A stretch of 64,000 bases of DNA from Spirochaetota bacterium (GCA_016214035.1 JACRPF010000007.1:124001-188000); one strand, 5' to 3'; positions 19,299 through 53,069 are shown, counted from the first letter of the stretch. Program-made: numbers and translations. The notes: generated from the letters alone by a model not told the origin.

Positions 19299-19304
19299 AT
19301 TTTT

Positions 19305-35477: not shown

Positions 35478-37829
35478 TCATGGGTGCACCATGATCTTCA
35501 CAATGATCGTTTCAGAATTTGATGTCAGATGACAAAGATAAACACCCGGAACTACCTTTTGCCCATTCGTCGTGGTGAGATCCCAGGTGACACGCCCCGC
35601 CGAACGGTCAGCATCGGTGGGTGTTACAACAGCAACACGTTTGCCGGAAACGGAATATACCACGGCTACAACATTCTCAGGCACCTGTGTGATCACCGCA
35701 TCTCCGCTGAGACGACACGGATTATTGAGCATCACCGCTCCTGTCAACTTCTTAACCGGTGCAGACAAACTGACGTTGGTGATAAATGTCGATACGGTGT
35801 TCGTTCCGACAACAGCTGTTATTCTGATCGTATAGCGCTGCAGTATGTCCATCGACAAAGGGTAATGCCAATCATTGGTAAAACTGCCGCCGGTATTCAG
35901 AGTGATCGGACCGGTCAAATCATGAGATAAAACAGCAATCCACACTCCGGCATTCGACACAGCCGCATATGCAATTGACAGCATAGCGGCATTCGTGCAG
36001 TTCTTCATCATCGAATAGGACAGTGACAGTGTCCGTGTATCCGACCGTGGTATTACTGCGGAATTACTGAGACTGAGAATTACGGCCGGCTGCTTGGATA
36101 CACCTGCGGTACGTGCCGACTCACCGCCGCTGTTGGTCGCCGACACCTTGTACCAATAGGTCACTCCGGCGGACAGAGACGAATCGGTGTATACGGCGGT
36201 GTTTGCACCCGCACTTGCGATATACGCAAATGATGAACCGTTCGTGCTGCGGTAAATCCTGAATGCGTTTTCGTTCGCCGACTTGTCCGTCCACGTCAGC
36301 CGCAGCGCCATCGCTCCCGTATCCTGCAATGTCAGATTTGTCGGTGCCGCGGGCGGTGTGACGACAAGCGTATACAGGTATGTGTTGGTTGCGCTATTGT
36401 TGCCCAGCGAATCGCGGCCGTACACGGAAAGCGATGTGGTATTTTCAATATCGATCGATGTACCGTTCGTGGTGAATTGATTCCATACCGCTTGCGCTGA
36501 GCCTGTCGAAGCGTTGGTCGACCAGTATCCATAGGTCTCATTCACATCAAGCGTGACAGTAAACGGAGCGTTCGTCGAAAACGCTGACGGAGCGCCGGTG
36601 ACGATGGGCGCGTTTGTATCAAAACCGTATGAAATGGAATTCGTTGCGCCCGACACGTGCAGTAGGTCTTTGCCATAGTAACGCAGTACGGTACTCCGGC
36701 TTATCGTAATAACAGCACCGCTCGTCGTGAATTGATAAAACACAGAGCCGTTGGTCGACCAGAAGCCGTAATTCCTGTCGACATGAAGCGTAATCTGAAA
36801 CGTCTTATTCGTCGTGAATGCTTTCGGTGCACCGGTGACCTTCGGCGTCTGCGATTGGCTGAGCAGCCAGTCCCACACATTGTAGTTGCTGTACACCTTA
36901 GTCCATGCGCCGTGACCGCCGCTCGGATACAGGGTAACCCGCAGCGGATAGTCTCCATTCGTCACGACATTCGGTTCCCATGTCCACCCCGGCGTGCCTG
37001 ATGAAAAGAGGCCGGTCATGGTATTTGCCGCAGGCAGGTTTACGTTGTTCGACAGATGCGGGTACAACGCAAGCGGATCGGCGGTGTAATCCGCAAGCGC
37101 ACCGGAGATCGCACGCGCCCAGTCGATGGTGAGCGTACGGCTTACGGTTGCATCATCCCAGTTATGAAATGCCCAGACTGATACGCCGATGAAATGATCG
37201 GCATTGGTCGGATTCCACGACGCGCCGCATATCGGTATGACCGCGGCCAATCGCCCCGAATAATCGCGCACATAATCCCACGTACGTCCGCCGCCCATAC
37301 TGAGACCGGTCAGATACAGACGCGATGCATCGAGACGGTATGCAGACTCAAGGTACGTTAAAAACCCGTTCATCTCCCAGGGATCGAACCAGGCGTTGCT
37401 GTGCGCCTGCGGTGTTATTACAACGACTTCATTCGTCCCGAAATAGGGCGTCCGTCCCGCAGCCAGATCATTTTTGATGATCAGCATAGGTCCGATAGCG
37501 GCACTCTGCAGATGTCCCGTCGCCGTTGCGCCATAGATACCGTCACCGCCGCTGCCGACACCATGCAGCGCCACGATGAGCGGATAACGTTTTGTTGTAT
37601 TCATGTCATAACCCGGCGGAAGATATTCAATATATCCGAACGTGGACGATGTTGTTCCGAGATCTTTATATATCATCGCATTGTCTGCTGAGGCTATACG
37701 CGGGAATGTAAATATGATCACGAATAGACATACGGCAAATACCGACCTGTATGAAGAACCGGCACCGCTTCGGCTATACTGCATTCGTGCTGACATAGAA
37801 CACGCTGTTTGCATATCTTGTAAATTCAT
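35478..37829 (-). CDS. Secreted multidomain esterase (CE1/PHB-depolymerase-like)
   Basis: 783 residues. The signal peptide is preceded by a ~25-residue extension. The catalytic domain starts YIEYLPPGYD, with LHGVGSGGDG (oxyanion) and the Ser177 elbow GLSMGGGRT, as in feruloyl/acetyl esterases of CE1 type; His is likely in GGHGAWTKVY. Two modules with YGYWSTN or FWSTNG follow, then fibronectin type III (TYWYKVSATNSGGES) and a C-terminal FlgD-like domain (VTWDLTTTNGQKVVPGVYLC). The layout is shared with the next gene downstream, so both products should be exported and attached in the same manner. Confidence 0.75.
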   Translation of the reverse strand: MNLQDMQTACSMSARMQYSRSGAGSSYRSVFAVCLFVIIFTFPRIASADNAMIYKDLGTTSSTFGYIEYLPPGYDMNTTKRYPLIVALHGVGSGGDGIYGATATGHLQSAAIGPMLIIKNDLAAGRTPYFGTNEVVVITPQAHSNAWFDPWEMNGFLTYLESAYRLDASRLYLTGLSMGGGRTWDYVRDYSGRLAAVIPICGASWNPTNADHFIGVSVWAFHNWDDATVSRTLTIDWARAISGALADYTADPLALYPHLSNNVNLPAANTMTGLFSSGTPGWTWEPNVVTNGDYPLRVTLYPSGGHGAWTKVYSNYNVWDWLLSQSQTPKVTGAPKAFTTNKTFQITLHVDRNYGFWSTNGSVFYQFTTSGAVITISRSTVLRYYGKDLLHVSGATNSISYGFDTNAPIVTGAPSAFSTNAPFTVTLDVNETYGYWSTNASTGSAQAVWNQFTTNGTSIDIENTTSLSVYGRDSLGNNSATNTYLYTLVVTPPAAPTNLTLQDTGAMALRLTWTDKSANENAFRIYRSTNGSSFAYIASAGANTAVYTDSSLSAGVTYWYKVSATNSGGESARTAGVSKQPAVILSLSNSAVIPRSDTRTLSLSYSMMKNCTNAAMLSIAYAAVSNAGVWIAVLSHDLTGPITLNTGGSFTNDWHYPLSMDILQRYTIRITAVVGTNTVSTFITNVSLSAPVKKLTGAVMLNNPCRLSGDAVITQVPENVVAVVYSVSGKRVAVVTPTDADRSAGRVTWDLTTTNGQKVVPGVYLCHLTSNSETIIVKIMVHP

Positions 37830-37883
37830 TCGGATACCCTATTCCCCAGATCGACATTTATGTAGGTACATATATGCACTTTT

Positions 37884-37913
37884 ATTATAAAAAAAGGGTG
37901 AAATATCAGTCAA
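37884..37913 (-). promoter_or_regulatory. Candidate promoter of the esterase-hydrolase pair
   Basis: Minus-strand TTGACT (37908-37913), 18 bases including a seven-T run, TATAAT (37884-37889). The -35 box overlaps the stop of the preceding gene. It should transcribe the esterase and, 51 bases on, the GH-A-like gene. Confidence 0.5.
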
Positions 37914-39081
37914 TTGTTGTATCATTTGTCGTTTCCGGGATGGTCACCGGTCCTCCATGAGCGTCGCCGTACTTCATCGCTTCGTTGTTGATTGTATTTC
38001 CCTGAAGGAAAATACGTTTACTCGTATTACCGAGCCACATACCGCGCCGCACTCCTTCTGCAACGATAATCCTGTTACTGTATATTCTGATATTATCATG
38101 TCCGGTGTCATTTTTGAACTTCTGCGTGTTCGGATAGGTAAGCCATATCCCGGCACGCACCCACCATGTCTTTGCGGCTTCTTTTTCGCTGATCGGATAA
38201 TCGTTGGTCAGATCGTTATAGGCAATGCTCACATTGCTGCAGCGGAAAAACAATGATGCGCATGCATTCCTGGTATTGCGCGCCGTATTGCTGATGATCG
38301 CGGAATCGCTGCACCATTCCAGATCAAGTCCGACATCTTTCGCCCCGTCGACATGATTATATGCCATGAGCACATTGCTTGCGCCGGTCCCCCAGATAGC
38401 GCCTCCCCCGCCATTGCGCACCGTATTCCCGATAATGGTTATGTTCGATGACTTCTGCTGCTCGAACTTCCAGTTACCCCAGAACTGTATGCCGTGTTCC
38501 GTGCAATCATACACGTTATTACTGACAATGAGCATATCTCCGCAGAAATTCAGGTCTGTAGCCCGACGGACATTTGATATGAAACACGCTTGAATGATAA
38601 TAGCGGAACTATTATCAAGCCCTATGCCCATGCCTTTTGAATTTATAATCGTCACATTTGAAAGTGAAACATTACTCGATTTGAACGCATAAATGCCGTT
38701 GACGGCTTTACCCCGACAATCGATTCGAATACCTGAAAGAGAACAACCGCTGCTGATCTTGAAAAAGTTCTTTCCCGCCTCTTCCGTCGGAACTATACAC
38801 GCGCCGCCCTCGCCTCGTATGGATTTCCCCGCCGGCACGACGAGTTCTTTTACGGCAAACGTTCCGTTCGGGATCGTGACCGATGACGATGCGGCGAATG
38901 CCTTTTGAAACGCTGCCGTTGCATCACTCGTCCCGTCGGGATTTGCACCGTATGCGGTAATATCCGAGACTGATCTCATATCTGCGGGGAAAGCATTCTC
39001 TGCATTGAGAACACCGGCGAAACAGCATATGCACGCTAATGCCATCATACTTGAGTGAAATCCATTGCGCATCTGCTTCAT
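37906..39081 (-). CDS. Secreted right-handed parallel beta-helix protein (pectate-lyase-like)
   Basis: A 391-residue exported beta-helix. Signal peptide (residues 1-27, ending GVLNA) is followed by the pectate-lyase-superfamily opening DITAYGANPDGTSDATAAFQKAF. Beta-helix coils have recurring N-V-x-I patterns (SNVSLSNVTIINSKG, SNNVYDCTEHGIQ, ISNTARNTRNA). No lyase or hydrolase catalytic set could be assigned. Start at 39081 is preferred over the ATG 30 bases upstream because AAGG precedes it. Confidence 0.75.
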   Translation of the reverse strand: MKQMRNGFHSSMMALACICCFAGVLNAENAFPADMRSVSDITAYGANPDGTSDATAAFQKAFAASSSVTIPNGTFAVKELVVPAGKSIRGEGGACIVPTEEAGKNFFKISSGCSLSGIRIDCRGKAVNGIYAFKSSNVSLSNVTIINSKGMGIGLDNSSAIIIQACFISNVRRATDLNFCGDMLIVSNNVYDCTEHGIQFWGNWKFEQQKSSNITIIGNTVRNGGGGAIWGTGASNVLMAYNHVDGAKDVGLDLEWCSDSAIISNTARNTRNACASLFFRCSNVSIAYNDLTNDYPISEKEAAKTWWVRAGIWLTYPNTQKFKNDTGHDNIRIYSNRIIVAEGVRRGMWLGNTSKRIFLQGNTINNEAMKYGDAHGGPVTIPETTNDTTID

Positions 39082-39144
39082 ATCATTGCACCTTTTCCCC
39101 AAAACTGTCACGAGCGAATCGAGTTACCATAATTATCACGACCT

Positions 39145-40620
39145 CTACTTTCCTGACGGTGCTATCACCGGTTCAATTTTTGTGACGGGCAATTGCCACC
39201 GTGCCGGTTCATCTTTGCGCTGCTGTTCCAGCCATGCAAGCGCGGCTGCGTGTATTATCACGTGTCCTCCATCAAATACCGATATGCGTGTATTCCCCGA
39301 TATCTTCCGGAATAACACCGGCGCTTTACCGTAATAGGGATCATTTTCCGGCTTTTGATATTTTGTGGGCACCGACCTGTTCGCCGTCATGAAGTCGATA
39401 TCATCGGCAGGAATTCTATCCGCCTCAGCCGCCGCCATATTATACGCAAGCAATGAATGACTTACCGGCACGCTCCCCGTATGACCGTCATGAATTCCGG
39501 CATTGATGTCCAGCGGCAGTTTTTTCGCAGAAGCAATATATATTATGGGCGAACGCCGCGCATACTCATCATCAACAGACGACGATTCCCCGGGAGTACC
39601 CGAACAGACCTTTTTCAGCATGTCGGCATAATTCAGTTTTGCGGCGCGTGTCTGCACATACCATTCCTTCAGATCGGATATTCCGCACCAGGCCGACACC
39701 GCAGCCCATGTCTCCGGACTTCTGCCCGCCATGAGCATGGCCATATGCCCGCCGCCGGAGGCACCGACAAGATATACACGAGTTTGATCGATATTCGCCA
39801 GTGTCTTTGCGTAGGTCACTGCACTCAGAATATCCTTTACCGCGTGTTCTGAACCGCATGCCTCAGGATTGTTATTCGGTCCGCGAAAATTCGGATGCAG
39901 CATCGCCCAGCCATGCGCTATACACCATTTCGCATATTCCGGTTCTGCCTGCATATAATTACCGCCCCACGTGTGAAGCGCAACTAAAAGCGGTACCGGT
40001 TCCGTGGCATCGGGTCTATAGAACAGCGCCGGCTGCTCCGTAGCATCAGCATCACTGTGATAGACGATCTTTTTCACCCCTGCCGGCCATCCGGGGACTT
40101 CAGGGACAATTGCCCCTCCACGTACCTCGCCGTCCGTGATCGTACCGAATGTGACCTCCCGAATTGCCGGCTGTTTATTGTGCGCTTTGTCCGTAAATAC
40201 AAACTTTATAAACCTTGCTGATTTATTCAGTGTCAGAACGGCCGGTGTAACATTCGGCAGGGTACCGGCTTCATTCATGTGCTCGACATCATCACCGATA
40301 TGCACTACCGCCGATCGGGCCATGAATACATCTGAAAAATATTCGACACGTATTCCGGGTATCATCATTACCGAATCTAGGTCAAATAAAAGCGCCCATG
40401 TATTTGCCGCCGGGTCACCGGCCCAGGTTGTGTTGGTATTCCCATCGATCAGACATCCCGCATCGCCCTTACCGCCGGGATACACCGAGCTCGCTTTCAC
40501 GCTGATTGTCCCGATTCGTGCCGTCAATTTTTTTGATTCATCGGCTGCGGATAATAATCCGGCATACAAGGCCCAGGTCATAATGGCGATGACCGCTGAT
40601 GATATATTATTCCTTCTCAT
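39145..40620 (-). CDS. Secreted F5/8C-like plus alpha/beta hydrolase (carbohydrate esterase-like)
   Basis: 491 residues. Signal peptide, then a discoidin-like domain (about 30-175; KASSVYPGGKGDAGCLIDGNTNTTWAGD is characteristic), then a prolyl-oligopeptidase-type hydrolase with LHTWGGNY (oxyanion), the elbow VGASGGGHMAM, an acid in NAGIHDGHTG and His in FDGGHVIIH. Likely releases esters or short oligomers from bound glycans. The ATG at 40620 gives a proper signal peptide; the open frame extends 68 residues upstream into a hairpin-rich region. Confidence 0.75.
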   Translation of the reverse strand: MRRNNISSAVIAIMTWALYAGLLSAADESKKLTARIGTISVKASSVYPGGKGDAGCLIDGNTNTTWAGDPAANTWALLFDLDSVMMIPGIRVEYFSDVFMARSAVVHIGDDVEHMNEAGTLPNVTPAVLTLNKSARFIKFVFTDKAHNKQPAIREVTFGTITDGEVRGGAIVPEVPGWPAGVKKIVYHSDADATEQPALFYRPDATEPVPLLVALHTWGGNYMQAEPEYAKWCIAHGWAMLHPNFRGPNNNPEACGSEHAVKDILSAVTYAKTLANIDQTRVYLVGASGGGHMAMLMAGRSPETWAAVSAWCGISDLKEWYVQTRAAKLNYADMLKKVCSGTPGESSSVDDEYARRSPIIYIASAKKLPLDINAGIHDGHTGSVPVSHSLLAYNMAAAEADRIPADDIDFMTANRSVPTKYQKPENDPYYGKAPVLFRKISGNTRISVFDGGHVIIHAAALAWLEQQRKDEPARWQLPVTKIEPVIAPSGK

Positions 40621-40667
40621 ATTATGCACATAGTGCGCAATGATACTCAAAACATATTGCCGCTCTC

Positions 40668-40792
40668 GCGGTGCATCCAGCACCGCTGGCGCTAGCGAAG
40701 CGCGGGAGTTCATCATGATTCCGCACATCCATGTGCGAATTTTTCTTGGCATACCATCTTTCAAGCCATTGAGATTGCGGGATACGTCCCGC
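40668..40792. repeat. Cluster of short palindromes including REP-like repeat copy 2 (40673-40697)
   Basis: The 251-base gap holds three perfect hairpins: GCGGTGC/GCACCGC (40668-40686), GCGCT/AGCGC (40689-40703) and GCGGGA/TCCCGC (40777-40792). The 25 bases at 40673-40697 repeat those at 20127-20151 in inverse orientation with two mismatches. This looks like a REP-type intergenic element. Confidence 0.5.
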
Positions 40793-40871
40793 GCTATGCC
40801 TAAGTGTATCCATAACTGCTCCACACGGGCATGATAGATTGCCGTTCAGTGAAAGAAAAACGAGATGGCGG

Positions 40872-42422
40872 CTATTTTCCGAGCTTAACCACCGATGCAT
40901 CATTCATATATGTTTCGATATTCGGCTTAGCTCCGTTCTCGAATTTCTCATCGAGTATGGAGAATACCCCATGCGGCGTTCCCGGGATGTAGTTCCTGGC
41001 ATTTATGTAAATATCTCTTTTTGAATTTCCGGCATATAGATTTCGAGTCAGCACGCATCCGCTCGAGTTGGAAAAGTTCATGGTGCCGTCGATCTTGATG
41101 CCGTACGGATTCCGCAAAAAGGTGTTCGATTGTATCGTCGAATCATACACAGTCGTACATATCAATCCGGCCATCGCATTGTCGGTGCACCTGTTCTTGG
41201 CCACAACCGCGCCGCGAAGTCCGGTGGAGCCTTTGCCGGCGCCGTTGAGCAGAATGCCTATTCTGAAATTCGACATCGCGGTATTGTCCTGTATCTTTGC
41301 GCCGACGCCCCACCCGATGAAAATGCCGTCAACGCCGTTATACCGCGCCGTATGATATTGCACCGTGATGTCGCGTCCCCGGTTGATGTCGATGCCATTA
41401 TTGATGTTCCCGTCGGTGGTGCAGTTGCTCGCGATAAGACCATTGGGCTTGTCCGAGTTCCCCAATCCGATGTAGTTATTCTCGTTCGCGATGACATTCG
41501 CATAGAGCGTCTTCGCTGTCGCACGGTTGAATATCCCGAAATGGGAGTTCGAGCTGTAATTCCCGCCGATAACCGTGAACGCTTTACCGCTCCCCTCGAT
41601 ATACACTCCGTTGTACGGGTCTTTCGACATCGCAACCGGCGCACCGGATATCTTCGACTGGTTCACACCGTTCTCCGGTTTCCTGACGCCGGTGTCAGAA
41701 GGAAATGTGATCGTCTTTTTATCATAGTCGATGCTTTCTATTTTATATCGAGCGTCACCGAACCAGATGCGCGGATTGACCGGATTCTCAGCGGTCCAGA
41801 CGACGAATTGCGACGGTATCTCCGCCAGCGGTATCACCGGCGTATTCGCGTCTACAGGTGCTGATAATTTCGCACGCTGATAGGCACCGCTGCCGATGAC
41901 CTCGCAATTGCTCATGATGAGAACAGCATTTGCTCCGGAAAGTTTGATATAGATACCCTGCTTCGGTGCGTCCGGAACTTTCACATTGTTGAGCGTGATC
42001 GTATTGTCACCGCTCAAAACGATGATGACACCCGTTTCGCGCGGCGTTGACTTCGGCGTGTACGGTGTTGTGGGTGACAGAGTAGTAATATCGCTGATAA
42101 CTACTTCTTTTTCACGATATGAATCGCCGTTGATCGTCAGCGCAGGTCTGTCCTGATGCATCTGTTTGATCGCAGCGTTTTTCAAATGAACCGGCTTTCC
42201 GACAACCGCATTATCCAGTGCAACCGTAATTCCATGAAAATCGATTACGGAATCATCTGCGGCCGCATCAATCAGTGTTTTGAACGCGGCATTATCGTCG
42301 GTCCCGCCTATCCCGGATGTACGCGCATCGATCGATTGACCGGTGCCGCCTGAAAATAGCGACTGGGTCACAAAAACAACGAAGCAGACCATACCTGCTG
42401 CATAAACCCGTGCGTGTTTCAT
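40872..42422 (-). CDS. Secreted right-handed parallel beta-helix protein
   Basis: A 516-residue exported protein. The signal peptide ends near LFSGG. A beta-helix occupies residues ~60-500 (for example GVIIVLSGDNTITLNNVKVP, NNYIGLGNSDKPNGLIASNC, DGIFIGWGVGAKIQDNTAMS). Such folds occur in polysaccharide lyases, epimerases and GH28/GH110 enzymes; no catalytic motif was recognisable. The ATG at 42422 has a perfect SD (GGAGG). It follows the IclR gene by 47 bases on the same strand and is a likely co-transcribed target. Confidence 0.75.
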   Translation of the reverse strand: MKHARVYAAGMVCFVVFVTQSLFSGGTGQSIDARTSGIGGTDDNAAFKTLIDAAADDSVIDFHGITVALDNAVVGKPVHLKNAAIKQMHQDRPALTINGDSYREKEVVISDITTLSPTTPYTPKSTPRETGVIIVLSGDNTITLNNVKVPDAPKQGIYIKLSGANAVLIMSNCEVIGSGAYQRAKLSAPVDANTPVIPLAEIPSQFVVWTAENPVNPRIWFGDARYKIESIDYDKKTITFPSDTGVRKPENGVNQSKISGAPVAMSKDPYNGVYIEGSGKAFTVIGGNYSSNSHFGIFNRATAKTLYANVIANENNYIGLGNSDKPNGLIASNCTTDGNINNGIDINRGRDITVQYHTARYNGVDGIFIGWGVGAKIQDNTAMSNFRIGILLNGAGKGSTGLRGAVVAKNRCTDNAMAGLICTTVYDSTIQSNTFLRNPYGIKIDGTMNFSNSSGCVLTRNLYAGNSKRDIYINARNYIPGTPHGVFSILDEKFENGAKPNIETYMNDASVVKLGK

Positions 42423-42469
42423 AAATCCTCCGGAAAATGTTTTTATCGAACGATACTTTTTCCCCATGA

Positions 42470-43216
42470 TCAACCCTGCACCATATTTTCGTTTTCAATC
42501 CGCTTCGCGCACGATACGGCAAGTGATATCAGTTTGCTGCGGTTTGCTTCACTGTCACGGATGCCCAGCGTTGCGATGATCTCCCCCGAAGCGCCGAATA
42601 TCGGTGCGGCAACCGGATATGAATCCGGAATGATATCGGGAGCCGAATATCCCTCACTGCGTATCTTCGCAAGATATGATTCCAGCGCTTCAGGTGTATT
42701 CCAGAAATGCGCGCCGAATACGTTAAACGGGTACACGATGCGGTAATTGCGGCGCTGCTCGTCGGTCCAGAAAGCCTGAAACAACAGCGACGATGCCATT
42801 CCATATGGATGCGATATTTTCTCGAACGGCTGCTGTATGATACCCGGCCGCTCCGGGGACAGACGCATCGTCATGACAATATCAAAACCCGACTGCTCCG
42901 CGATGCTCACGGTGGCTGAAGGGAATGCATCATGCATTTCGCGCATGAAAGGCATGAGCTTTTGACGCAATCCCGACTGCTGCTGACGGCGGGCAATGGA
43001 AATGAATTTCTCACCGACGGCATAGCGGATCGGGTCCTGACGCTGATCCAGAAAACCCTCCGCGATAAGCGTACGCGCAAGATTATGCAGCGTAGTCTTT
43101 TTCATACCGGTCCGTTCCATCAACTGAGCCAGCGTCATTCCATCGGGGGCATCCGCCACGATCTCAAGGATCATCAGCCCTCGCTGCAATGATTGAACCA
43201 TCTCATTATATGCCAT
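42470..43216 (-). CDS. IclR-family transcriptional regulator
   Basis: A 248-residue regulator. The N-terminal winged helix is typical (VQSLQRGLMILEIVADAPDGMTLAQLMERTGMKKTTLHNLARTL, residues ~7-50), followed by the effector-binding GAF-like domain (residues ~75-245). IclR proteins commonly control catabolism of sugars, uronates and aromatics. Its promoter carries a perfect inverted repeat between -35 and -10, suggesting autorepression. It is adjacent to beta-helix genes on both sides. Confidence 0.9.
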   Translation of the reverse strand: MAYNEMVQSLQRGLMILEIVADAPDGMTLAQLMERTGMKKTTLHNLARTLIAEGFLDQRQDPIRYAVGEKFISIARRQQQSGLRQKLMPFMREMHDAFPSATVSIAEQSGFDIVMTMRLSPERPGIIQQPFEKISHPYGMASSLLFQAFWTDEQRRNYRIVYPFNVFGAHFWNTPEALESYLAKIRSEGYSAPDIIPDSYPVAAPIFGASGEIIATLGIRDSEANRSKLISLAVSCAKRIENENMVQG

Positions 43217-43401: not shown

Positions 43402-45042
43402 CTATCTGTCTGAGTTCACATTCGCGCAATGTTCCGCTGTCAGCGCCTGCTTCATCCGTTCACGCGGTTTATAAGACACTGTCTTTTCCATGATATTACC
43501 GGTAAACGATAATCCGTCGACCGAACGGGCATACACGAGTCCTGTGTCGAATGTCCTGAACAGATTTTGCTCTATGCGGATATTTCTATGGTAACACTTG
43601 TCTGAAAATTCCGGCATCTCAGGATCGATATCGATGACCGCGCGGCCCCAGACGCCGTAATTGCAGTCGATGAATTTGTTATTACGTATCGTCACATCAC
43701 TCACGGCGCCTGATTCATACCATGAGTTCGCGTCACCGGATATTTTGAGCGCAGAACCCGGCGTTGACAGTGTGTTGTTCTCAACAATAACTTTTCCCGC
43801 CGTCGTGATCAGAAAACCGCGCGCACGATTACGCCGTGCCGTGGTCCCGGTGATGATGAGATCAGGAACACGGTTCATGTTTTCGATGACATCTCCCGGC
43901 GAAAATTGCGGCAGCGCATCAAACGTCACGAGCATGCGGTCGACGTTCAGAATGCGCACACCGGTCACGGTACTTTCAGCGAACGGCAGAAGCGTCCTGT
44001 TGCTGACAAACCGCATCCGTTCTCCGGCCTTTGCAATATTTATCCCCACCTGTTCATGATGCACCAGCCGCACCAGCGCTGTCTTTTCATCGATGCGTTC
44101 ATCCAGCCGTCCGTAAATGCCATGCACGTTTCCCGGATCGTCAAGCTGGTTCTCGAACAGACAATTCTCGATGCGTATCATTCCGCGGCAGTATACAAAA
44201 TGCGTGGCGTCAGCCGATGCGCTGAACATGCGATCTCCGGACGGCGTCACCGAGCAATGCGAGAGCGTGATATTTTCCGTATTCTGTCCGATGAATCCCA
44301 TACCGCCGCAGTGATTGACCGTAACGTTCGTGAAACGGACATCTCTGCTTTCATCGATGAATATTCCCGGCGAATGGCGCGTACCGGTACGGAGCACCAT
44401 CACGTTGTTCTTTTTCGGCGGTGTTTTCATATCGGCGAAGATGCGTACAGCGCCGCCGGCAAGCGCTTCAGCCCTGCGTTCGATATGCCACGGAGAACCG
44501 GCATTATCAAGAGCCATATAAGCGACAGCGCGTGTAGCCGGATCGAATTCGAGAAAGTGCGTGAGCGGAAATTCGCATCCTTCACCTGGAAATACTAATA
44601 CATCTTTTTTGATCGCATAGGGAAACGCCGATGGAATTTTCATATCAAAGTGTTTCTCAGATGCGTCGACGACATCACCCTGTGCATAGAACGGATGTTC
44701 CCAATCGATAGAAATATCTTCTATTGTAACATCTGACGAAGCCGAGATGATGACACCCATCATGATGCCATGCATCACCAACCGGCTGCCGTTGCCTTTC
44801 ACCGTAAGCCCGTTCAACCCGAGGAGCGGGAGCGCGCATCGTTTAAGCCCGTGACTGTTATTCGAAATGGCGGCATACATCTCATGCGCGGTCTCGGGAT
44901 AGAAATGATAATCACCTTTGGGAAACACCAGGACGGCATCGACCGAAGCACGGCACGCGGCAAGCGCCGACAAAACAGCAAGTGTTGCATCGCTTCTGTC
45001 GGGCTTTGCGCCGAAGTCACGGACATTTATTTCAATACTCAT
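43402..45042 (-). CDS. GH110-like alpha-galactosidase (beta-helix)
   Basis: A 546-residue right-handed beta-helix without signal peptide. It opens with NVRDFGAKPDRSDATLAV and has DISIDWEHPFYAQGDV. The segment SADATHFVYCRG...ENCLFENQLDDPGNVHG has an Asp and an Asp-Asp pair 23/24 residues apart, matching the catalytic spacing I recall for GH110 (Asp321, Asp344/345). GH110 enzymes are inverting exo-alpha-1,3-galactosidases. Absence of a signal peptide suggests cytoplasmic action on imported oligosaccharides. Last gene of the operon running from 52089. Confidence 0.7.
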   Translation of the reverse strand: MSIEINVRDFGAKPDRSDATLAVLSALAACRASVDAVLVFPKGDYHFYPETAHEMYAAISNNSHGLKRCALPLLGLNGLTVKGNGSRLVMHGIMMGVIISASSDVTIEDISIDWEHPFYAQGDVVDASEKHFDMKIPSAFPYAIKKDVLVFPGEGCEFPLTHFLEFDPATRAVAYMALDNAGSPWHIERRAEALAGGAVRIFADMKTPPKKNNVMVLRTGTRHSPGIFIDESRDVRFTNVTVNHCGGMGFIGQNTENITLSHCSVTPSGDRMFSASADATHFVYCRGMIRIENCLFENQLDDPGNVHGIYGRLDERIDEKTALVRLVHHEQVGINIAKAGERMRFVSNRTLLPFAESTVTGVRILNVDRMLVTFDALPQFSPGDVIENMNRVPDLIITGTTARRNRARGFLITTAGKVIVENNTLSTPGSALKISGDANSWYESGAVSDVTIRNNKFIDCNYGVWGRAVIDIDPEMPEFSDKCYHRNIRIEQNLFRTFDTGLVYARSVDGLSFTGNIMEKTVSYKPRERMKQALTAEHCANVNSDR

Positions 45043-45059
45043 GGTACGGCTCCTTATTA

Positions 45060-46157
45060 TCAGAGATACTTCTTGATGAAAGTCCGGGTCTTCTCGCCGT
45101 CCCAGCGATGCGGCCCGGCAAATACATGATGAAGCAGATGTTCCTCCGCATTGAAAAGCTGATACGCTTCCCGTGTTATGGCAACCTGCTCTTCCACATT
45201 TTTCAGCCCCTTAGTCGCGCCGTTGAGCGGATCGATGTTTCCCGTTTCTATCAGGAACGGACGCGGTGCGATGAGGGCGCCGATGTCGCCCATATCGACA
45301 GTCTCCCACAGATGCGGCACATAATTACAGCTGCAGTTATTCGATAAGCGGAGCAGCGCATCTTCATAGCCGTAAAAATAACCGCTGGTCACCGCAAGCT
45401 TCACGCGATCGTCGAGCGCCGCAAGCCACAGCGTCTGAAGCCCGCCGCCCGACAGACCGGCACAGGCAAGACGTTCGCTCCGGCAGTCATCGCGCGACTG
45501 TATGTAATCGATCAGCCTCATATTGTCCCATGCCCAGAGTCCGGTGAGCGACCGCCCCAGCGATATGGCCATATGATTCAGCGCCATGCAGGAACTCGAC
45601 ATCAGGAACTTTTCATCCTGATGCATCCATTCACGGCGGTCACCGAAACCGCGGGCGTCCGGACAGAAAACGATATAACCGGCCTCAGCAAAACGTCTGC
45701 CGTAATCATGGTGCGTCACCGCGAGGCGCTCGCGAATCGGGTCTATGTCCGCCCGCCCCGTTGTGCTCAGCCGTCCGCCGCTGCTGTGACCGTGTGGCGC
45801 AATAATGGGAATGCGCCTGTCAGATGGACCGCAGCCGTCCGGAACAAGCACATCGAAGGGCATTGCTACGTCCGGCTCTGTCCATATCAGGAATGTATCA
45901 CGGCGATATCCGTCACATGCGATGCTTTCAATATGCTCCGGCTTAAGATCGCTCTTTTCCATGCGGTTAAGACCGGTGATCTCCCATAATCGTGCACGGA
46001 CCTTCTGCTTCCATGCCGCATACGCCTCCAGGCTCCCTGTCGCCACGGGATACTGCCGCGCCTCCTTCCTGAACAATGCTATGAATCGTTCCGTCGATGT
46101 ATAGAATTGCCGGATACCGAATGTGCCTTTTTCCGATTCCATATCACCACATCCCAT
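45060..46157 (-). CDS. Cytosolic alpha/beta hydrolase (Abhydrolase_7/acetyl esterase-like)
   Basis: A 365-residue hydrolase without signal peptide. It has APHGHSSGG (oxyanion), FCPDARGFGDRREW, the elbow CAGLSGGGLQTLW, the acid in ETGNIDPLNG and His in FAGPHRWDG. Similar proteins occur in polysaccharide-utilisation loci and are thought to be deacetylases. The ATG at 46157 overlaps the upstream stop (TAATG); a Met at 46142 is an alternative. It sits between two GH110-like genes. Confidence 0.75.
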   Translation of the reverse strand: MGCGDMESEKGTFGIRQFYTSTERFIALFRKEARQYPVATGSLEAYAAWKQKVRARLWEITGLNRMEKSDLKPEHIESIACDGYRRDTFLIWTEPDVAMPFDVLVPDGCGPSDRRIPIIAPHGHSSGGRLSTTGRADIDPIRERLAVTHHDYGRRFAEAGYIVFCPDARGFGDRREWMHQDEKFLMSSSCMALNHMAISLGRSLTGLWAWDNMRLIDYIQSRDDCRSERLACAGLSGGGLQTLWLAALDDRVKLAVTSGYFYGYEDALLRLSNNCSCNYVPHLWETVDMGDIGALIAPRPFLIETGNIDPLNGATKGLKNVEEQVAITREAYQLFNAEEHLLHHVFAGPHRWDGEKTRTFIKKYL

Positions 46158-47941
46158 TACTTTTCAATTCGGTTATTGCGTTCGACAAAGACATCGCAAT
46201 CATTCGTCGCAAGCCACGGTATATCGCCGCGCGTCTCGCGAATGGTATTTCCGATGAACGTTACGGCGGATGTGTTGGTGATGCGCACGGCGACATTGGT
46301 CGATCCGCGCGCCTCCGGCCATTTCGCCGCCATCTCGATAATGTTGTTCTCTATCGTCACGTTCGACGCCGAGTGAATATTGATGGCCATCGACAGCGGC
46401 CGTATGATCGCATTGCTCGCGATAATGATGTCGCGCATGCCGCGCCATGCGCCGGTCTTCCCGCCGAGCATATGTGTATCGATCCAAATACCGCCGCCGC
46501 GCCGAGGCGTATTGCCGTCGATGCCGCAGTCGCGTATCACATTATTGCGCACGACGATGCGTTCCGCCACAAAACCCTCCGGCCAGTCCGGTTCATTCGC
46601 CATGATGATAGCGGTGCTGCCGAGACCTTCATACACATTGCCCTCGATGATGCCGTCATGCGTCTTGATATAATTGCCGTAGCGCCGCGAGTTCCTGAAA
46701 ATATTGTTGCGTATGACGAAGTGCGAACTCATCGCGTTCATATTGTAAACGTGGTCGGCGTCTTTCGATCTGCCGAACGTCAGCGATGATGTTACGACGG
46801 GGTCGAGCACAAGCGCGAACAGCCCGTTCGAATTGACCAGCGTAACTATCTTTGCCTCATGCACCAAGAGCCCCTGACGCGGATTAAATATGCGGAGCAC
46901 GTCGCCTACGACCATGGATTGCTGGCGTGTCACTGAAAGCGTGCCGTTCTCGTTCGATACGGGATACGACGGTATCGTATAGAAATTAACTCCGTCATCG
47001 GCTATCCCCTCAAACACGCAGTCCTCAACCCACGGACCGATGCGGTTCTGCTGCACGTGAACGCCGTCGGCGGCGGACGATGCCCAGCGTCCGGGTTTAA
47101 GCAGCACCGCGCATGAGAGAAAGCTCAGCCGTGAACTCTGGCTTGCCACATAGTTTGCACCCGGTGATGAATAATTGGTGATGCCGATGAAACTTACATT
47201 TTCGCTTGAGTAAGTCCCCGACAGCGAAGCGATGCGCGCATACTGAACAAAGCGATCACCGACGGCGAAGGCGCGTATGACGTCCTTGCGTTTGAGACGA
47301 AAGCGATAAATATCCGGCGCCACGTTACTGAAACCTTCGTTCTGAAAGAAATCATCCACCGCCGCTTTCATGCGTCCGGGAATGTTTTTATCCTTCAGCA
47401 TACCGAATGACGGCCGCGCGAAATACGGCTCTTTGAGTGAAGGAAATCCCGCGTCAAGATGCAGATCGAATGTGCTGTTTACCGCATCTACCGCTTCGAC
47501 AATACCCTGCGTGAACGGCAGCGGATCCCAATCGACGACAAAATGCTTCACGATGATATTCGTAGCATATCGTATCTTGAGAAACGATACTTCCGGATGC
47601 TTCATGATTATTTCAGCACCGTTGCCGCTGACCACAAGATTATTCATATTACTCAGCTCTAGCGCAGCGCGGTTCGTCGGTTCGCAGTCGAAGATATACC
47701 GCCCCGGCTCAAAGCGGATTTCCACCGGTACTCCGGCGTTTCGCGCAGCTGTTATCGCCGCTTCAACCGCAGGCAGATCGTTCACCGCGTCATCCGGTTT
47801 GGCGCCGAATGATGCTACGGCAATGCTCTTTACCGTTATCAGGTTCGTGTACGGCGGCGGTCGATCGAGCGGGAAAAGTATCGCTATGAAAAACGATGCC
47901 ATTAGCAGCAAATGAACAGTACCGCAGCGTATTCCGGGCAT
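46157..47941 (-). CDS. GH110-like alpha-galactosidase, exported
   Basis: 594 residues with an N-terminal signal or anchor (residues ~8-24). The beta-helix has VDWDPLPFTQGIVEAVD, and the triad segment ADGVHVQQ...EDCVFEGIADDGVNFY gives Asp, then Asp-Asp at +23/+24, the spacing of GH110 catalytic residues. Later coils read NNLVVSGNGAEIIM and NVTIENNIIEM. I use the ATG at 47941 because AAGGAT lies upstream within the previous stop region; the longer frame overlaps the O-acetylesterase. Probably removes terminal alpha-linked galactose outside the inner membrane. Confidence 0.7.
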   Translation of the reverse strand: MPGIRCGTVHLLLMASFFIAILFPLDRPPPYTNLITVKSIAVASFGAKPDDAVNDLPAVEAAITAARNAGVPVEIRFEPGRYIFDCEPTNRAALELSNMNNLVVSGNGAEIIMKHPEVSFLKIRYATNIIVKHFVVDWDPLPFTQGIVEAVDAVNSTFDLHLDAGFPSLKEPYFARPSFGMLKDKNIPGRMKAAVDDFFQNEGFSNVAPDIYRFRLKRKDVIRAFAVGDRFVQYARIASLSGTYSSENVSFIGITNYSSPGANYVASQSSRLSFLSCAVLLKPGRWASSAADGVHVQQNRIGPWVEDCVFEGIADDGVNFYTIPSYPVSNENGTLSVTRQQSMVVGDVLRIFNPRQGLLVHEAKIVTLVNSNGLFALVLDPVVTSSLTFGRSKDADHVYNMNAMSSHFVIRNNIFRNSRRYGNYIKTHDGIIEGNVYEGLGSTAIIMANEPDWPEGFVAERIVVRNNVIRDCGIDGNTPRRGGGIWIDTHMLGGKTGAWRGMRDIIIASNAIIRPLSMAINIHSASNVTIENNIIEMAAKWPEARGSTNVAVRITNTSAVTFIGNTIRETRGDIPWLATNDCDVFVERNNRIEK

Positions 47942-47951
47942 ATGAATATCC

Positions 47952-49871
47952 TTACTCGACATATTCGATCGACGGATCCCACATAGTATAATCGTTCGAA
48001 TTATTATTGTCGATAGCCTGAACGATAAAGCAGACCGCATCACCGGCCGCGACCGCCGCAGTGACCTCATGAACGACCGCTTCGCTCTTCTTATCAGGCA
48101 GAATATCGTCGGTCCATATTTTTTCAGCGTTCTTCATTATAGTAAGCGATATCCCTTTCACCGTTCCGGTAGACCTGGCGCTACCCATAATGCGGAGCGT
48201 TCCGTTTTTCGGCGCCGTCCATTTCCGCACCGAGCCCGCGGTGTTGCCGGGATGCTGCGCATTCTGATAAACGTGGCAATAAGGCTCCGTGCCTTCCCAG
48301 CGTCCATTGGTATATTTCATCTCGCTGTAATTCGTCCCGTCAAACGACAGAAAATGCCATCCCTTCCTGCCCTGTCTGTCGGCATAGCCGTCTGAAGCCT
48401 GATAGGAAGCCCAATCGTCGGTGCGGAATGGTGTCGCGGGTAGCCCCGCTCTGTTGTAAAGGCCGACGTCAGGATTACTCGCCCATGCGTACCGGACGGC
48501 AGCGGGAACCGGAACTTTTTCACTTGAAACGACGACACGCGCACCGTCTATCACCGCTTTCGCCCAGACGAACTTTTTATCCTTTCCCGCAATGGCAAAA
48601 CCCGGCATACTGCCGGCAATCGCGTTCGAAGCGATAAGTCCGCCGTCGATATGATCGAACGAGAGACGGACAGTAGAGCCATCTACCTTCATCGAACGAT
48701 ACTGCGGACCGGAATATACGATACCGCTCACGCCGTAAGTCTTCGCGAGCGCGGGAAGCGCAAGCCGATAGCCCACCGTCTGTTTGTCCTTTGGATGGAT
48801 ATTCGTCGTATTGCCGATGTCGATGATGACCGCCATCCCGGTGTTGGTGACCGCGAGCACCGCCGTCTGCGATTCACGGAGATCGGCCCAGCCGCTTTCG
48901 CCCGGCTCGGTGCTCTTCGCCTGATAGTTGGCCAGCTGCACCAGATAAAATGGAAAATCGCCGATATCCCATCGCTCTCGCCATGACGTGATGAGTAGCG
49001 GCAGCAAACGCCGGTATTGTTTCGCACGGCTACGCGGGCCGGCATTGTTCTCACCCTGATACCAAATCGCCCCGCGCATGACATAATTGGTGAGCGGCGC
49101 TATCATGCCGTTGAAAAGCGTCGTGGTGGTCATGCGGAGCTGTATGATCTCTTTTGTGTTTGTCACCGCATCGGGGTTCGGATATTTCGCCATGGCGGAT
49201 GTAAGCCCGTTGGTAAGTTCATAAAACTCGGACGACGCGGCAAGTGTTTCGATGGGCATCCACGCTTCCGCCGGAGTTCCGCCCCAGGTACTCCGGAGTA
49301 TACCCACAGGCACGCCGAGATTCGTATGCAGCGTGCGTGCATAGAAATATGCCGTAGCTGAAAATCCGCGCACCGTGTCCGATCGGCAGACAATCCAGTT
49401 CCCCTTCACATCGTTCGTTGGCTGATAGCGTATCTTATTATTGAATGAAAAATATCGTATTCCCGGATAGTCGGCGTGATTCGTCTCGTAATCAAGATTG
49501 TCGCATCCGCCTACGCTCATTTCCATATTCGACTGCCCGGACGCCAGCCACACTTCGCCGATAAGTATGTTCTTTATCGTAATCGTATTCTTTCCCTTTA
49601 CGGTCATCTCGAACGGACCGCCGGCTTTCATCGGTTTAAGTTTCAACCGCCATGTCCCGTCGGCATCGGCAGTTGCCGTCACCGTCTGATCGGCGATACT
49701 CACCGTCACTGCTTCGCCGGGCTCGGCCCAGCCCCAGACACGAAGCGGCATCTCATGCTGCAGCATCATGTTGTCGCTGAAGAGAGCCGGCAGACGTACA
49801 TCGGCGGCAAGCGGCAACGCAAGCATTATCGAAACGAACAGAGCTATGTGATAACGGCTTATTGATGCCAT
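47952..49871 (-). CDS. Sialate O-acetylesterase (SASA)-type carbohydrate esterase with C-terminal module
   Basis: 639 residues. Signal peptide (ALPLAA), then an SGNH-type domain with the nucleophile in ASGQSNMEMSVGG, GAIWYQGENNAG and the DIGNTTNIHPKDK Asp/His block. Such enzymes deacetylate sialic acids or, in glycan-degradation loci, xylan and pectin. The last ~125 residues (after about 510) form a beta-sandwich-like module (YCHVYQNAQHPG, WDPSIEYVE) also found at the end of the next upstream gene. Four bases separate it from that gene, so it is operonic. Confidence 0.85.
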   Translation of the reverse strand: MASISRYHIALFVSIMLALPLAADVRLPALFSDNMMLQHEMPLRVWGWAEPGEAVTVSIADQTVTATADADGTWRLKLKPMKAGGPFEMTVKGKNTITIKNILIGEVWLASGQSNMEMSVGGCDNLDYETNHADYPGIRYFSFNNKIRYQPTNDVKGNWIVCRSDTVRGFSATAYFYARTLHTNLGVPVGILRSTWGGTPAEAWMPIETLAASSEFYELTNGLTSAMAKYPNPDAVTNTKEIIQLRMTTTTLFNGMIAPLTNYVMRGAIWYQGENNAGPRSRAKQYRRLLPLLITSWRERWDIGDFPFYLVQLANYQAKSTEPGESGWADLRESQTAVLAVTNTGMAVIIDIGNTTNIHPKDKQTVGYRLALPALAKTYGVSGIVYSGPQYRSMKVDGSTVRLSFDHIDGGLIASNAIAGSMPGFAIAGKDKKFVWAKAVIDGARVVVSSEKVPVPAAVRYAWASNPDVGLYNRAGLPATPFRTDDWASYQASDGYADRQGRKGWHFLSFDGTNYSEMKYTNGRWEGTEPYCHVYQNAQHPGNTAGSVRKWTAPKNGTLRIMGSARSTGTVKGISLTIMKNAEKIWTDDILPDKKSEAVVHEVTAAVAAGDAVCFIVQAIDNNNSNDYTMWDPSIEYVE

Positions 49872-49875
49872 ACTA

Positions 49876-52089
49876 TTATTGACCCACTTCTATGATCGGA
49901 TCCCATGAGGTGTAATCACCGCTGTTGTTCTGTCCGCAATTAACGATAAAGAACAGTACATCGCCCGTACCGACACGCACCGTCACCTCGTGCGGAACAC
50001 CGGCGCGGTTCTTAACCGGCGATGTCCATATCGTTTCAGTATTTTTCATTATCCGGCACACCACGCCATCGCTGCCGGAACTTGACGGCCTGCCGGTGAT
50101 CCGCAGCGTTGCCGTTCCTGAAGACGTCCAGCTTCGTACCGAATCGGTTTTATTTCCCGGATGCTGTGCGCCGGCATACACATGGCAGTACTGCTCGCCT
50201 CCCTCCCACATATTTTTTGAGGCATTGTAGGTCATCGCCGAATATGAACTGCCGTCCCAGGAAAGATATCGCCAGTCATTCCTGCCCGCTTCGCCCGAAA
50301 AGCCCTTCGATGCGAGTATACGTTTTTTATGTTTGATATCAGCTCCGCTCACGCCGGAAACGTCCTCACTCGCACCGATGAACGTGTCCCCGAACGGCCC
50401 CATGCGTTCAAGTTTGTTGCCTGAGAAACTGACATCGCTGACGCGGTCAAGCCATACAACGGCCTTCGTATCAACCCCGCGGCCTTCGCCCCTGCGCCAC
50501 TCCGCCGAATGCGTATCCCGGAAGATATTGCCGTTCACCGTCACATTACTCGCCGCGGCGATGACTAGATTCACGCCGAAACATTTCTCAACGGTATTGC
50601 CGACGATATCGATATTGCGCTGCGAACCGGGAGCTGCATAGCCGTTCGCACCGTTCGCGATGACGGATATCATGCCGGCCTGCGAACTATCCGTCGATGC
50701 GCGTTCATAACCGCAATTGCGTATCGTATTGCTCCTGATGACCACGTTCCATGAGTTCCCCGCTTCCATCCAGTATCCGAGTTCGGGGGCGATGATGATA
50801 CCGGCAATGGAGCTTCCGTCGATGACATTGTTCTCGATAATGCCGTCTGACGCCTTGATGAGAATACCGCGTGCGCGGTGATTGCGTATCGTATTCCCGC
50901 GGACGATGAAGCCGTCGCCGTTCTTTGCAGGACAGTCGATGCCGTCACCCGATGTTACCGATACTGATCTGTCGAGTATTACGTCATAATAATTTTTTAT
51001 CGAGGCTGCAATGTTCTTATTGTCAATTCTAATACCGCTTTTGATCGCTTCGCATCTGCTTTTATCCGCACCGGACACCGGAGCTATCGACAGGACGTTC
51101 GCCTCGGCATAGACCGTGCCGTCGGAAGCACGCGTCAGCCGTACCGTGCTGTTCGTCGTAAACGGCAGCGTATCGCCTTTGGGTGAAACGACAATACGGT
51201 CACCCTCGCCGGTCATCACCATCGCGTAATGGCCATGAATGGCGATGCCGTCGTCACTGTGACCCTCGATGAGACAGTTCTCGATACGCGGCCCCGGCAT
51301 GGATGATATGACATGTATACCGTCGGCGGTGTTCGCTTTCAATCTGGCTTCGGCAGCACCCGGCGGCACCGGGCCGGGAGTGATGCGGCAGTTGAGATAC
51401 CGGTTGCCGCCGCCGTTGTAGTCGAGCACAGCGAACGTGGGTCCGGTAAATAACGTAACTCCATCCAATGTACAATTGAACGAATTACCCAGTATGGTCA
51501 CATGCGCGGCTTTCTGTCTGCATTTTATGACGATAAGGTCACCCTTTTCGATACCGAGACGGGCATTGACGCCGTCAGTCGTTCCGTGCACCGTTCTTCC
51601 GTTCAATTTCAGCGAAGCGCTCGTTCCTGACGTCATCATGTTCTTTTTCCAATGACGCGTTGTCCGATCATACACATACAAACCCGCAGAGCCTTCCGGC
51701 GGGAGCGGATAGCCTTCGTGAAGCGCAAGGTCGAACCACTTGTCATCCTTGTCTATATCGGTCACCTCGCCCTGCGTAAACGGCAGCGGGTCGTAATCCA
51801 CGGTGAGTCCGCGGACGGTGACGTTGGTGCAGTTACGAAGCGAAAACGATGTACTTACCTCGGTACAGACTATCGTCACACCGGCGGCATTCACCGTGAA
51901 ATCAGTCATATTGGACAGCTGTACATGCACATTGCCGTGCGTCGACGGCGGTTTCAGGCGATAGGTCCCCGGCGCTATCGTCACTTCTTTTTTGCCGGAC
52001 GCATACGCCTCATAGATGATTGCTTCAATATCCTGTGCCTGAAGCATCATCGCCGATACCGTGATCAGCACGAGTAAAACAGTTTTCAT
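49876..52089 (-). CDS. GH110-like alpha-galactosidase with C-terminal binding-like module, exported
   Basis: 737 residues. Signal peptide (MLQAQ at about 15-19), then a beta-helix with VDYDPLPFTQGEVTDID. TADGIHVISS...ENCLIEGHSDDGIAIHG has the Asp and Asp-Asp at +23/+24 spacing of GH110. The C-terminal ~125 residues (YCHVYAGAQHPG, RITGRPSSSG, DYTSWDPIIEVG) are homologous to the end of the neighbouring O-acetylesterase and may bind the shared substrate. SD GGAGG precedes the ATG. First gene of the five-gene operon, divergent from the AraC regulator. Confidence 0.72.
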   Translation of the reverse strand: MKTVLLVLITVSAMMLQAQDIEAIIYEAYASGKKEVTIAPGTYRLKPPSTHGNVHVQLSNMTDFTVNAAGVTIVCTEVSTSFSLRNCTNVTVRGLTVDYDPLPFTQGEVTDIDKDDKWFDLALHEGYPLPPEGSAGLYVYDRTTRHWKKNMMTSGTSASLKLNGRTVHGTTDGVNARLGIEKGDLIVIKCRQKAAHVTILGNSFNCTLDGVTLFTGPTFAVLDYNGGGNRYLNCRITPGPVPPGAAEARLKANTADGIHVISSMPGPRIENCLIEGHSDDGIAIHGHYAMVMTGEGDRIVVSPKGDTLPFTTNSTVRLTRASDGTVYAEANVLSIAPVSGADKSRCEAIKSGIRIDNKNIAASIKNYYDVILDRSVSVTSGDGIDCPAKNGDGFIVRGNTIRNHRARGILIKASDGIIENNVIDGSSIAGIIIAPELGYWMEAGNSWNVVIRSNTIRNCGYERASTDSSQAGMISVIANGANGYAAPGSQRNIDIVGNTVEKCFGVNLVIAAASNVTVNGNIFRDTHSAEWRRGEGRGVDTKAVVWLDRVSDVSFSGNKLERMGPFGDTFIGASEDVSGVSGADIKHKKRILASKGFSGEAGRNDWRYLSWDGSSYSAMTYNASKNMWEGGEQYCHVYAGAQHPGNKTDSVRSWTSSGTATLRITGRPSSSGSDGVVCRIMKNTETIWTSPVKNRAGVPHEVTVRVGTGDVLFFIVNCGQNNSGDYTSWDPIIEVGQ

Positions 52090-52120: not shown

Positions 52121-52149
52121 AGTCTATACGGAAGTGCCTTCATCGTCAA
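52121..52149 (-). promoter_or_regulatory. Candidate promoter of the GH110 operon
   Basis: Minus-strand TTGACG (52144-52149), 17 bases, TAGACT (52121-52126). The weak -10 box fits an activator-dependent promoter, and an AraC activator is divergently encoded. Confidence 0.4.
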
Positions 52150-52194: not shown

Positions 52195-52216
52195 GTATAC
52201 CGTAAATACGGTATAC
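52195..52216. promoter_or_regulatory. Perfect 22-bp palindrome at the araC-type gene start
   Basis: Arms GTATACCGT (52195-52203) and ACGGTATAC (52208-52216) flank AAAT. The repeat ends seven bases before the ATG, where a SD would be expected. It could be a protein operator or an mRNA hairpin hiding the start. Confidence 0.7.
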
Positions 52217-52223
52217 TGTATCC

Positions 52224-53069
52224 ATGAAACACGCCGCAGCGCCGCTCTTCGACCATGCCGGGTCGCATTGCATATCGTCGTTTGAAGACGAGTTCTTCAA
52301 TAATCTTTCCATCGACCTGAAAGAATACGGGTATGTATCCTATCTCCGGGACGAGACCATCGAGCGCCGCGGTCCCTATAACGAGATACAGCTCATCATC
52401 GGCGGCACCGGACATGTGATACGCGGCAGAAAGCGTTTCCGTCTCGACGCGCCGCTTGTCTCATTCCTGCCGTTAAGCGATCCGGTAACGATTGAGAATC
52501 ATGCGAAGCTCATGAAAGTCTTCTTCCAATGCAACATACGCTACAGCGGTGTTGATATCCTTCTCAATGAATCGCCGCTGTTCCTCCCGCTTACTGAAAA
52601 TACCGATACGTGGTGGGACCGTGCCGTGCGGGCCATAGACAGCGCCAACAGATTATCGGTATATGCGCTTCTGTATGACGCTCTCGCCTGCGCTGAAGCT
52701 GAACTTACCGCCATCGCAAAACGCAAACGCGCACCCTATAAACGTTTTGAACGGTACTTTGAGTATGTGCGCCGCACACCGCTCCGGTCGATATCGCTCC
52801 CGGATGTAGCCGCAGAATACGGACTGCACCGGAATTACTTTTCGCAGGAGTTCAAGCGGCAGTTCGGAATGCCGGCAAAGGCATACGCGCTCATGGAAAA
52901 GCTTCGCGCAGCAAAGGCAATGCTGCTGGAAACGGACGATGAAATACCATCCATTTCCGAAGTGCTCGGCTTCTTCGACCGATTCCATTTTTCAAAGCTT
53001 TTCAAAAAGCACACCGGCTGTACACCGGTCGAGTTCAGAAAGCGCCATGAAACAGGAGCCGCACGCTGA
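52224..53069 (+). CDS. AraC-family transcriptional regulator (GH110 operon)
   Basis: 281 residues. The N-terminal cupin-like sensing domain (residues ~15-160; YNEIQLIIGGTGHVIRG) is followed by the double helix-turn-helix (residues ~180-278; ISLPDVAAEYGLHRNYFSQEFKRQFG and FFDRFHFSKLFKKHTGCTPVEFRK). It is divergent from the GH110-like operon, so a role as its glycan-responsive activator is likely. There is no recognisable SD; the start is embedded next to the 22-bp palindrome. Confidence 0.9.
   Translation: MKHAAAPLFDHAGSHCISSFEDEFFNNLSIDLKEYGYVSYLRDETIERRGPYNEIQLIIGGTGHVIRGRKRFRLDAPLVSFLPLSDPVTIENHAKLMKVFFQCNIRYSGVDILLNESPLFLPLTENTDTWWDRAVRAIDSANRLSVYALLYDALACAEAELTAIAKRKRAPYKRFERYFEYVRRTPLRSISLPDVAAEYGLHRNYFSQEFKRQFGMPAKAYALMEKLRAAKAMLLETDDEIPSISEVLGFFDRFHFSKLFKKHTGCTPVEFRKRHETGAAR

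Follow-up and report, generated by a model that had tools for sequence, protein, structure and literature searches.

We describe five genes of a Spirochaetota bacterium that likely form one operon, in which an enzyme of glycoside hydrolase family GH110 (A) is encoded together with two esterases (SASA and Abh) and two beta-helix proteins (B and C). By family-specific tests B and C are not members of GH110, and yet their sequences mark them as relatives of this family. We think it somewhat more probable than not that the operon, which is linked to an AraC-type regulator, serves to deacylate a heteroglycan and to cut off its alpha-linked terminal sugars, first outside the cell and later within it. 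A further-reaching proposal, which we offer tentatively as possible rather than probable, is that B and C represent one or two new glycoside hydrolase families of the GH110 or clan GH-N type whose end sugar is not plain galactose, that these two proteins, a CE20-type esterase and a cytoplasmic GH110 make up a gene set conserved across a Spirochaetota lineage and Verrucomicrobiota, and that the C-terminal module shared by C and the esterase binds carbohydrate and is of a new kind. GH110 enzymes are considered for the conversion of group B red cells, and they perform a key step when lambda-carrageenan is broken down. A sister group with kept catalytic machinery and a changed sugar pocket would lead directly to new exo-glycosidase specificities, and from the repeated occurrence of esterase, B and GH110 genes together comes a testable prediction of enzymes that work together.

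Gene organisation and regulation

The window, meaning the whole stretch of 64,000 nucleotides that was analysed, contains at 43402-52089 five co-directional ORFs on the minus strand, transcribed in the order C, SASA, B, Abh, A. These genes and the features within and around them are:

49876..52089, minus strand: C, encoding an exported beta-helix protein of the GH110-sister type (737 aa; triad D256, D279, D280)
51250..51324, minus strand: codons D256 to D279-D280 of C
49879..50319, minus strand: module of about 143 aa at the C-terminus of C, putatively carbohydrate-binding, 51% identity with the SASA C-terminus
47952..49871, minus strand: SASA, exported SASA / CE20-type carbohydrate esterase with Ser114 (GQSN), His359 and Asn357
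47955..48404, minus strand: the C-terminal module again, carried by the SASA esterase, found by profile search
46157..47941, minus strand: B, encoding an exported beta-helix protein of the GH110-sister type (594 aa; triad D292, D315, D316)
46994..47068, minus strand: codons D292 to D315-D316 of B
45060..46157, minus strand: Abh, Abhydrolase_7 esterase without signal peptide (Pfam 1.2e-13)
43402..45042, minus strand: A, GH110 without signal peptide, 546 aa, triad D278, D301, D302
44137..44211, minus strand: codons D278 to D301-D302 of A
52121..52149, minus strand: promoter-like TTGACG-17-TAGACT upstream of C (consensus scan only)
52195..52216, no strand: palindrome GTATACCGTAAATACGGTATAC, candidate operator between C and the AraC gene
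52224..53069, plus strand: AraC-family regulator, divergent from C
42470..43216, minus strand: IclR regulator, the next gene after A, with its own promoter-like TTGACA-17-TATATT at 43280-43252
59547-61703: GH28 gene, in another transcription unit

C and SASA are 4 bp apart, Abh and A 17 bp, B and Abh overlap, and the start of B (ATG 47941) lies ten bases past the stop of SASA with AAGGA upstream of it. Because these gaps and overlaps are so tight, the five genes likely constitute one operon. In the consensus scan the promoter-like site before IclR was stronger than the one before C, and the number of promoter-like sites in the region was not clearly higher than in shuffles. As such a site is located upstream of IclR, the last gene of the operon is probably A, and IclR probably starts the next transcription unit outside of it. 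Among the five operon genes there is no sulfatase, and none of them encodes an endo-acting enzyme or a transporter. We infer that the divergent AraC-type regulator probably switches the operon. The palindrome GTATACCGTAAATACGGTATAC is a single site in the window with 0 expected in shuffles, allowing up to three mismatches; it was rejected as a conserved operator, being absent from the AraC-C spacers of the related genomes G001 and G040.

Relationship of the three beta-helix proteins to GH110

Judged by its sequence, A is a true GH110 and the only one among the three proteins. It matches GLAA-B barrels I (3.4e-20) and II (4.2e-14) of Pfam above the curated cut-offs as well as all GH110 entries of the PDB, with E values from 1.9e-103 (7jw4) to 6.1e-48, and in the phylogenetic tree it groups with 7jw4 and Spirochaetota orthologues in the GH110 clade. 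The roles of the -1-subsite residues in GH110 have been described (PMC7939477, PMC12549532), and in our residue alignment A keeps N85, R265, N348, R451, R453, W486 and E488 along with the catalytic triad. The sole -1-subsite residue that is not kept lies at the variable position 480, where A has a Ser; at this position the Glu of PdGH110B blocks the 6-sulfate pocket and the Arg of GH110A allows 6-sulfate (PMC12549532). A is like the GH110 exo-alpha-1,3-galactosidases (PdGH110B 7jw4, AmGH110 8pvs, PpaGal 9i4f, AgaBb 8yk1) in sequence, GLAA-B barrels, triad and -1 subsite, and differs from them in Ser480 and in having no signal peptide, which is also missing from its orthologues in G001 and G040. 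Its probable reaction is the release of alpha-1,3-linked galactose.

A preliminary description of the locus had listed three GH110-like enzymes and named a CAZy/HMM assignment to GH110 as a way to check this. With the Pfam models such an assignment holds for A with its two GLAA-B barrels but not for B and C, and to speak of three GH110 enzymes would be too strong. In neither of them was a GLAA-B Pfam domain found at E values up to 1, and their Pfam matches are generic Beta_helix and NosD only (for C Beta_helix, with no GH110-specific domain); even the relatives of B in the loci L140 and L141 gave a GLAA-B match of only 0.03-0.06. A phmmer search against the PDB returned GH110 as the best but weak match for both (B 3.3e-16, C 2.7e-13), and with hhalign both matched a GH110 alignment over their full length, B with 8e-50 across 511 columns and C with 5.6e-39 across 490. 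The profile-profile comparison of B with C gave 2.2e-59, so that by this measure as well as in the tree the distance between B and C is smaller than that of either to GH110. The tree, a quick maximum-likelihood search with midpoint root, places them in two other deep clades outside the characterised GH110 with SH-aLRT values of 95-99.

AlphaFold2 models of B and C, built from five-row alignments and with a pLDDT of 72, were compared to known structures with Foldseek, and the top 15 matches were all GH110 chains (1e-26 to 1e-22), followed by matches of 1e-9 or weaker. The GH110-type fold that had been proposed for all three proteins is therefore retained, and the models indicate that B and C share it. 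The clan GH-N families GH28 and GH49 (GH87 has been proposed as a further member) also possess a right-handed beta-helix in which one Asp serves as acid and two as base at a spacing of about one rung, but their Foldseek scores were many orders weaker. Assignments of B and C to GH28, GH87, GH141 or lyases were rejected on the Foldseek results, and GH28 was also rejected for B by profile comparison, in which the profile of the GH28 neighbour from the same window did not match B.

While B and C are like the GH110 exo-alpha-1,3-galactosidases in overall fold and catalytic triad, they are without the Pfam barrels, Asn85 and other contacts of the -1 subsite. Asn85 in the ISNN segment is missing in both, R453 is replaced by Tyr in B, and C carries Ala for N348 and Lys for R265. 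R451, W486 and E488 are kept in B and C, and their equivalents are kept together with the triad in most relatives from two phyla. With an altered -1 subsite, no GLAA-B domains and a position outside the GH110 clade, galactose specificity is not transferable to B and C, and since they differ at sugar-contact residues their sugar may be one other than galactose.

The Asp and Asp-Asp at +23/+24 that had been noted in A, B and C were confirmed in all three, with the ORFs in the expected place and on one strand. The bare D-x22-DD pattern alone is weak evidence and occurs in 9-14% of composition shuffles; with its AD-x2-H context it is found in 0.02-0.05% of them. In full-length alignments the triad residues of A, B and C fall into homologous columns and align with Asp321, Asp344 and Asp345 of PdGH110B, of which Asp344 is the proposed acid (PMC7939477), in agreement with the earlier reading of these residues as catalytic. 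Counted from the longest ORF the triad of B would be D335/D358/D359, instead of D292/D315/D316 from the likely start. For B and C a pocket position of the triad was checked at the level of the alignment and of the residue spacing, which corresponds to about one rung of the beta-helix. The triad is present in most of the relatives, which come from two phyla, and a few have lost an Asp, e.g. the L133 copy. The sequence contexts are less strict than originally worded: ADGxH...ENC does exist but reads ADATH, ADGVH or ADGIH with ENC, EDC or ENC, and (Y/W)-(D/E)-x-P-F-x-Q-G-x-V is recovered only with one-residue shifts (WEHPFYAQGDV, WDPLPFTQGIV, YDPLPFTQGEV).

Esterases, shared module and predicted localisation

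Both genes that had been taken for esterases are predicted to be so by homology. SASA matches the Pfam family of this name (1.4e-17) and the CE20 structure 9h4u (5.4e-115) across the N- and C-sandwiches and the SGNH core. It is like the CE20 esterases XacXaeA (7kmm) and Fl8CE20_II (9h4u) in its beta-sandwiches, SGNH core, GQSN Ser (Ser114, GQSNM) and block V His (His359), and differs in Asn357, which replaces the Asp of DxH at a position where Asp or Asn is allowed, in the extra C-terminal module shared with C, and in the absence of the ancillary insert (residues 219-246 of the query face 220-405 of the 9h4u chain), which only some CE20 members have and which is not a membership requirement. 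Abh matches Abhydrolase_7 with 51.6 bits against a Pfam cut-off of 21, has putative acetyl xylan esterases as its nearest solved relatives (PDB 3nuz, 1e-10), and possesses the GLSGGG nucleophile motif and the GPHRW His. The two esterases would point to an O-acetylated glycan.

According to a profile search the C-terminal module exists in exactly two copies in the 5.2 Mb genome, on C and SASA, and in the family-mate G001 it is found on C and the adjacent B. It had no match in Pfam or NCBIfam, and its weak match to a Xyn-Y xylanase domain (E 0.03) is not significant. Signal-like hydrophobic stretches are found at the start of C, SASA and B, and A and Abh are without a signal peptide. This supports the division into outside and inside steps made in the preliminary description, where one of the three beta-helix proteins had been seen as lacking a signal peptide and two as exported. 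The shared module and the cytoplasmic GH110 appear to be among what is new in this locus.

Distribution of the gene set

C-type genes are rare in Spirochaetota, as the model of C matched 5 of 393 genomes. The head-to-head AraC-C pair is kept in three genomes (55% identity in G001 and 45% in G040), and in one further genome, G001, B comes directly after C; neither G001 nor G040 has A, B and C all in one place. No relative of C was present in the viral contigs searched. The genome itself encodes about 12 GH110-fold proteins and about 30 sulfatases, none of the latter in this operon.

In the Verrucomicrobiota locus L142 we found SASA, B and GH110 in the order and on the strand of the window, with B and GH110 overlapping. 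Other arrangements of B with SASA and/or GH110 occur in L133/L141, L140, L138 and L151, and likewise L135 has a B-type gene beside GH110 and/or SASA. GH110 enzymes without signal peptide are also encoded in L130, L131, L135, L141 and L151; among those adjoining B the signal peptide is missing in L135, L141 and L151 and present in L142. MFS_2 sugar transporters were detected by Pfam in L140 and L141. SASA lies within 8 kb of 5 of the 23 B-type and 0 of the 25 C-type loci (Fisher p = 0.02, post hoc and uncorrected for ancestry). A mixed B model matching 106 of 289 Verrucomicrobiota genomes was rejected as a count of B, as it also finds A itself. The recurrence of part of the gene set in Verrucomicrobiota suggests a shared carbohydrate food.

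At several of these Verrucomicrobiota B loci S1 sulfatases adjoin, which had not been foreseen in the preliminary description. Given these sulfatases and the many in the Spirochaetota genome itself, B-type enzymes may act on ester-decorated glycans in general.

Proposed pathway and alternatives

In the pathway that we propose, the CE20-type esterase SASA would strip O-acyl, probably acetyl, groups outside the cytoplasm, where C and B would act as inverting exo-glycosidases of GH110 fold and remove alpha-linked terminal sugars, with one Asp as the acid and two Asp holding the water. The shared C-terminal module might keep C and SASA on the same polymer. Oligosaccharides would then enter via a transporter encoded outside the operon, Abh would remove leftover esters in the cytoplasm, and A would release alpha-1,3-linked galactose there.

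That A, B and C all release galactose would fit the common fold and triad, the known multi-GH110 loci (PMC12549532) and the sulfatases adjoining B-type genes in relatives. We nevertheless regard it as unlikely, because B and C have lost -1 residues described as "remarkably conserved" across GH110 (McGuire et al., PMC7939477), have no GLAA-B Pfam domains and form separate clades nearer to each other than to GH110, and because the operon is without a sulfatase. The altered -1 subsite could instead mean that the sugar recognised by B and C is an acidic or deoxy one, in a pectin-like or a fucose/rhamnose-containing glycan, and that A is the sole galactosidase, and with this the GH28 gene nearby and the GH78-type rhamnosidases encoded next to the B-type genes of L138 and L140 would agree; as the GH28 gene belongs to another transcription unit, however, and the neighbours vary between relatives, we consider this unlikely as well.

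Generic Pfam matches such as those of B and C would also be expected from beta-helix lyases, epimerases or binding proteins, but the Foldseek and profile matches point to GH110 and not to lyases, and the triad and the W486/E488/R451 equivalents are kept in most relatives across two phyla, which makes non-hydrolytic proteins very improbable. Nor do we see much reason to assume a chance neighbourhood: the gene order is lost in G001 and G040, where only the AraC-C and C-B pairs remain, but tight spacing and overlaps, the recurrence of SASA-B-GH110 in another phylum and a shared module of which the genome has no further copy render this highly improbable.

In the literature searched, which included few subscription papers, we found neither this gene set nor any sister family akin to GH110 described. 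Two-GH110 loci are known for lambda-carrageenan (PMC12549532), and therefore the presence of several GH110-fold enzymes in a single locus has a precedent; new would be the sister group and the way in which it recurs alongside a CE20-type esterase and a GH110. The lambda-carrageenan locus of Pseudoalteromonas distincta (GH110A, GH110B, GH2, GH150 and S1 sulfatases) is similar in that it combines several GH110-fold exo-enzymes with ester-removing partners. It differs in having sulfatases where acyl esterases are found here, in its GH150 and GH2, which have no counterpart here, and in its GH110 pair, as the family tests place B and C outside GH110.

GH110-fold genes in the genome and surroundings of the operon

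The Spirochaetota genome from which the window comes holds about 12 GH110-fold beta-helix genes (loci L117-L129), which is an unusual expansion within a single genome of this phylum. AraC-type regulators adjoin several of these genes. S1-type sulfatase genes number about 30 in the same genome (PF00884, 33 matches), and only one of them is located on the contig of the window, more than 140 kb away from the operon. Further features of the window are:

19111-19300, minus strand, 6S RNA (Rfam RF00013, 69 bits)
35478-42473, second carbohydrate gene group, beyond the IclR gene
52195-52216, palindrome GTATACCGTAAATACGGTATAC with 10 bp arms, immediately ahead of the AraC start codon
54216-58236, consecutive ExbB-like, ExbD-like, TonB-like and TonB-dependent receptor genes
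59547-61703, beta-helix protein of the GH28 family, carrying a D-D motif

The ExbB-to-receptor row is a possible importer of the operon products. The palindrome was not found in the AraC-C spacers of G001 and G040, two relatives' genomes keeping this head-to-head pair. The second carbohydrate group encodes two beta-helix proteins that are unclassified, an esterase with an F5/8 domain and an esterase-like protein that bears fn3. Another AraC gene (61814-62710) lies close to the GH28-family gene. Between 58550 and 59374 many near-identical RPTGMRD-type repeats make up both the ORF and the DNA, and this stretch is probably a non-coding tandem array.
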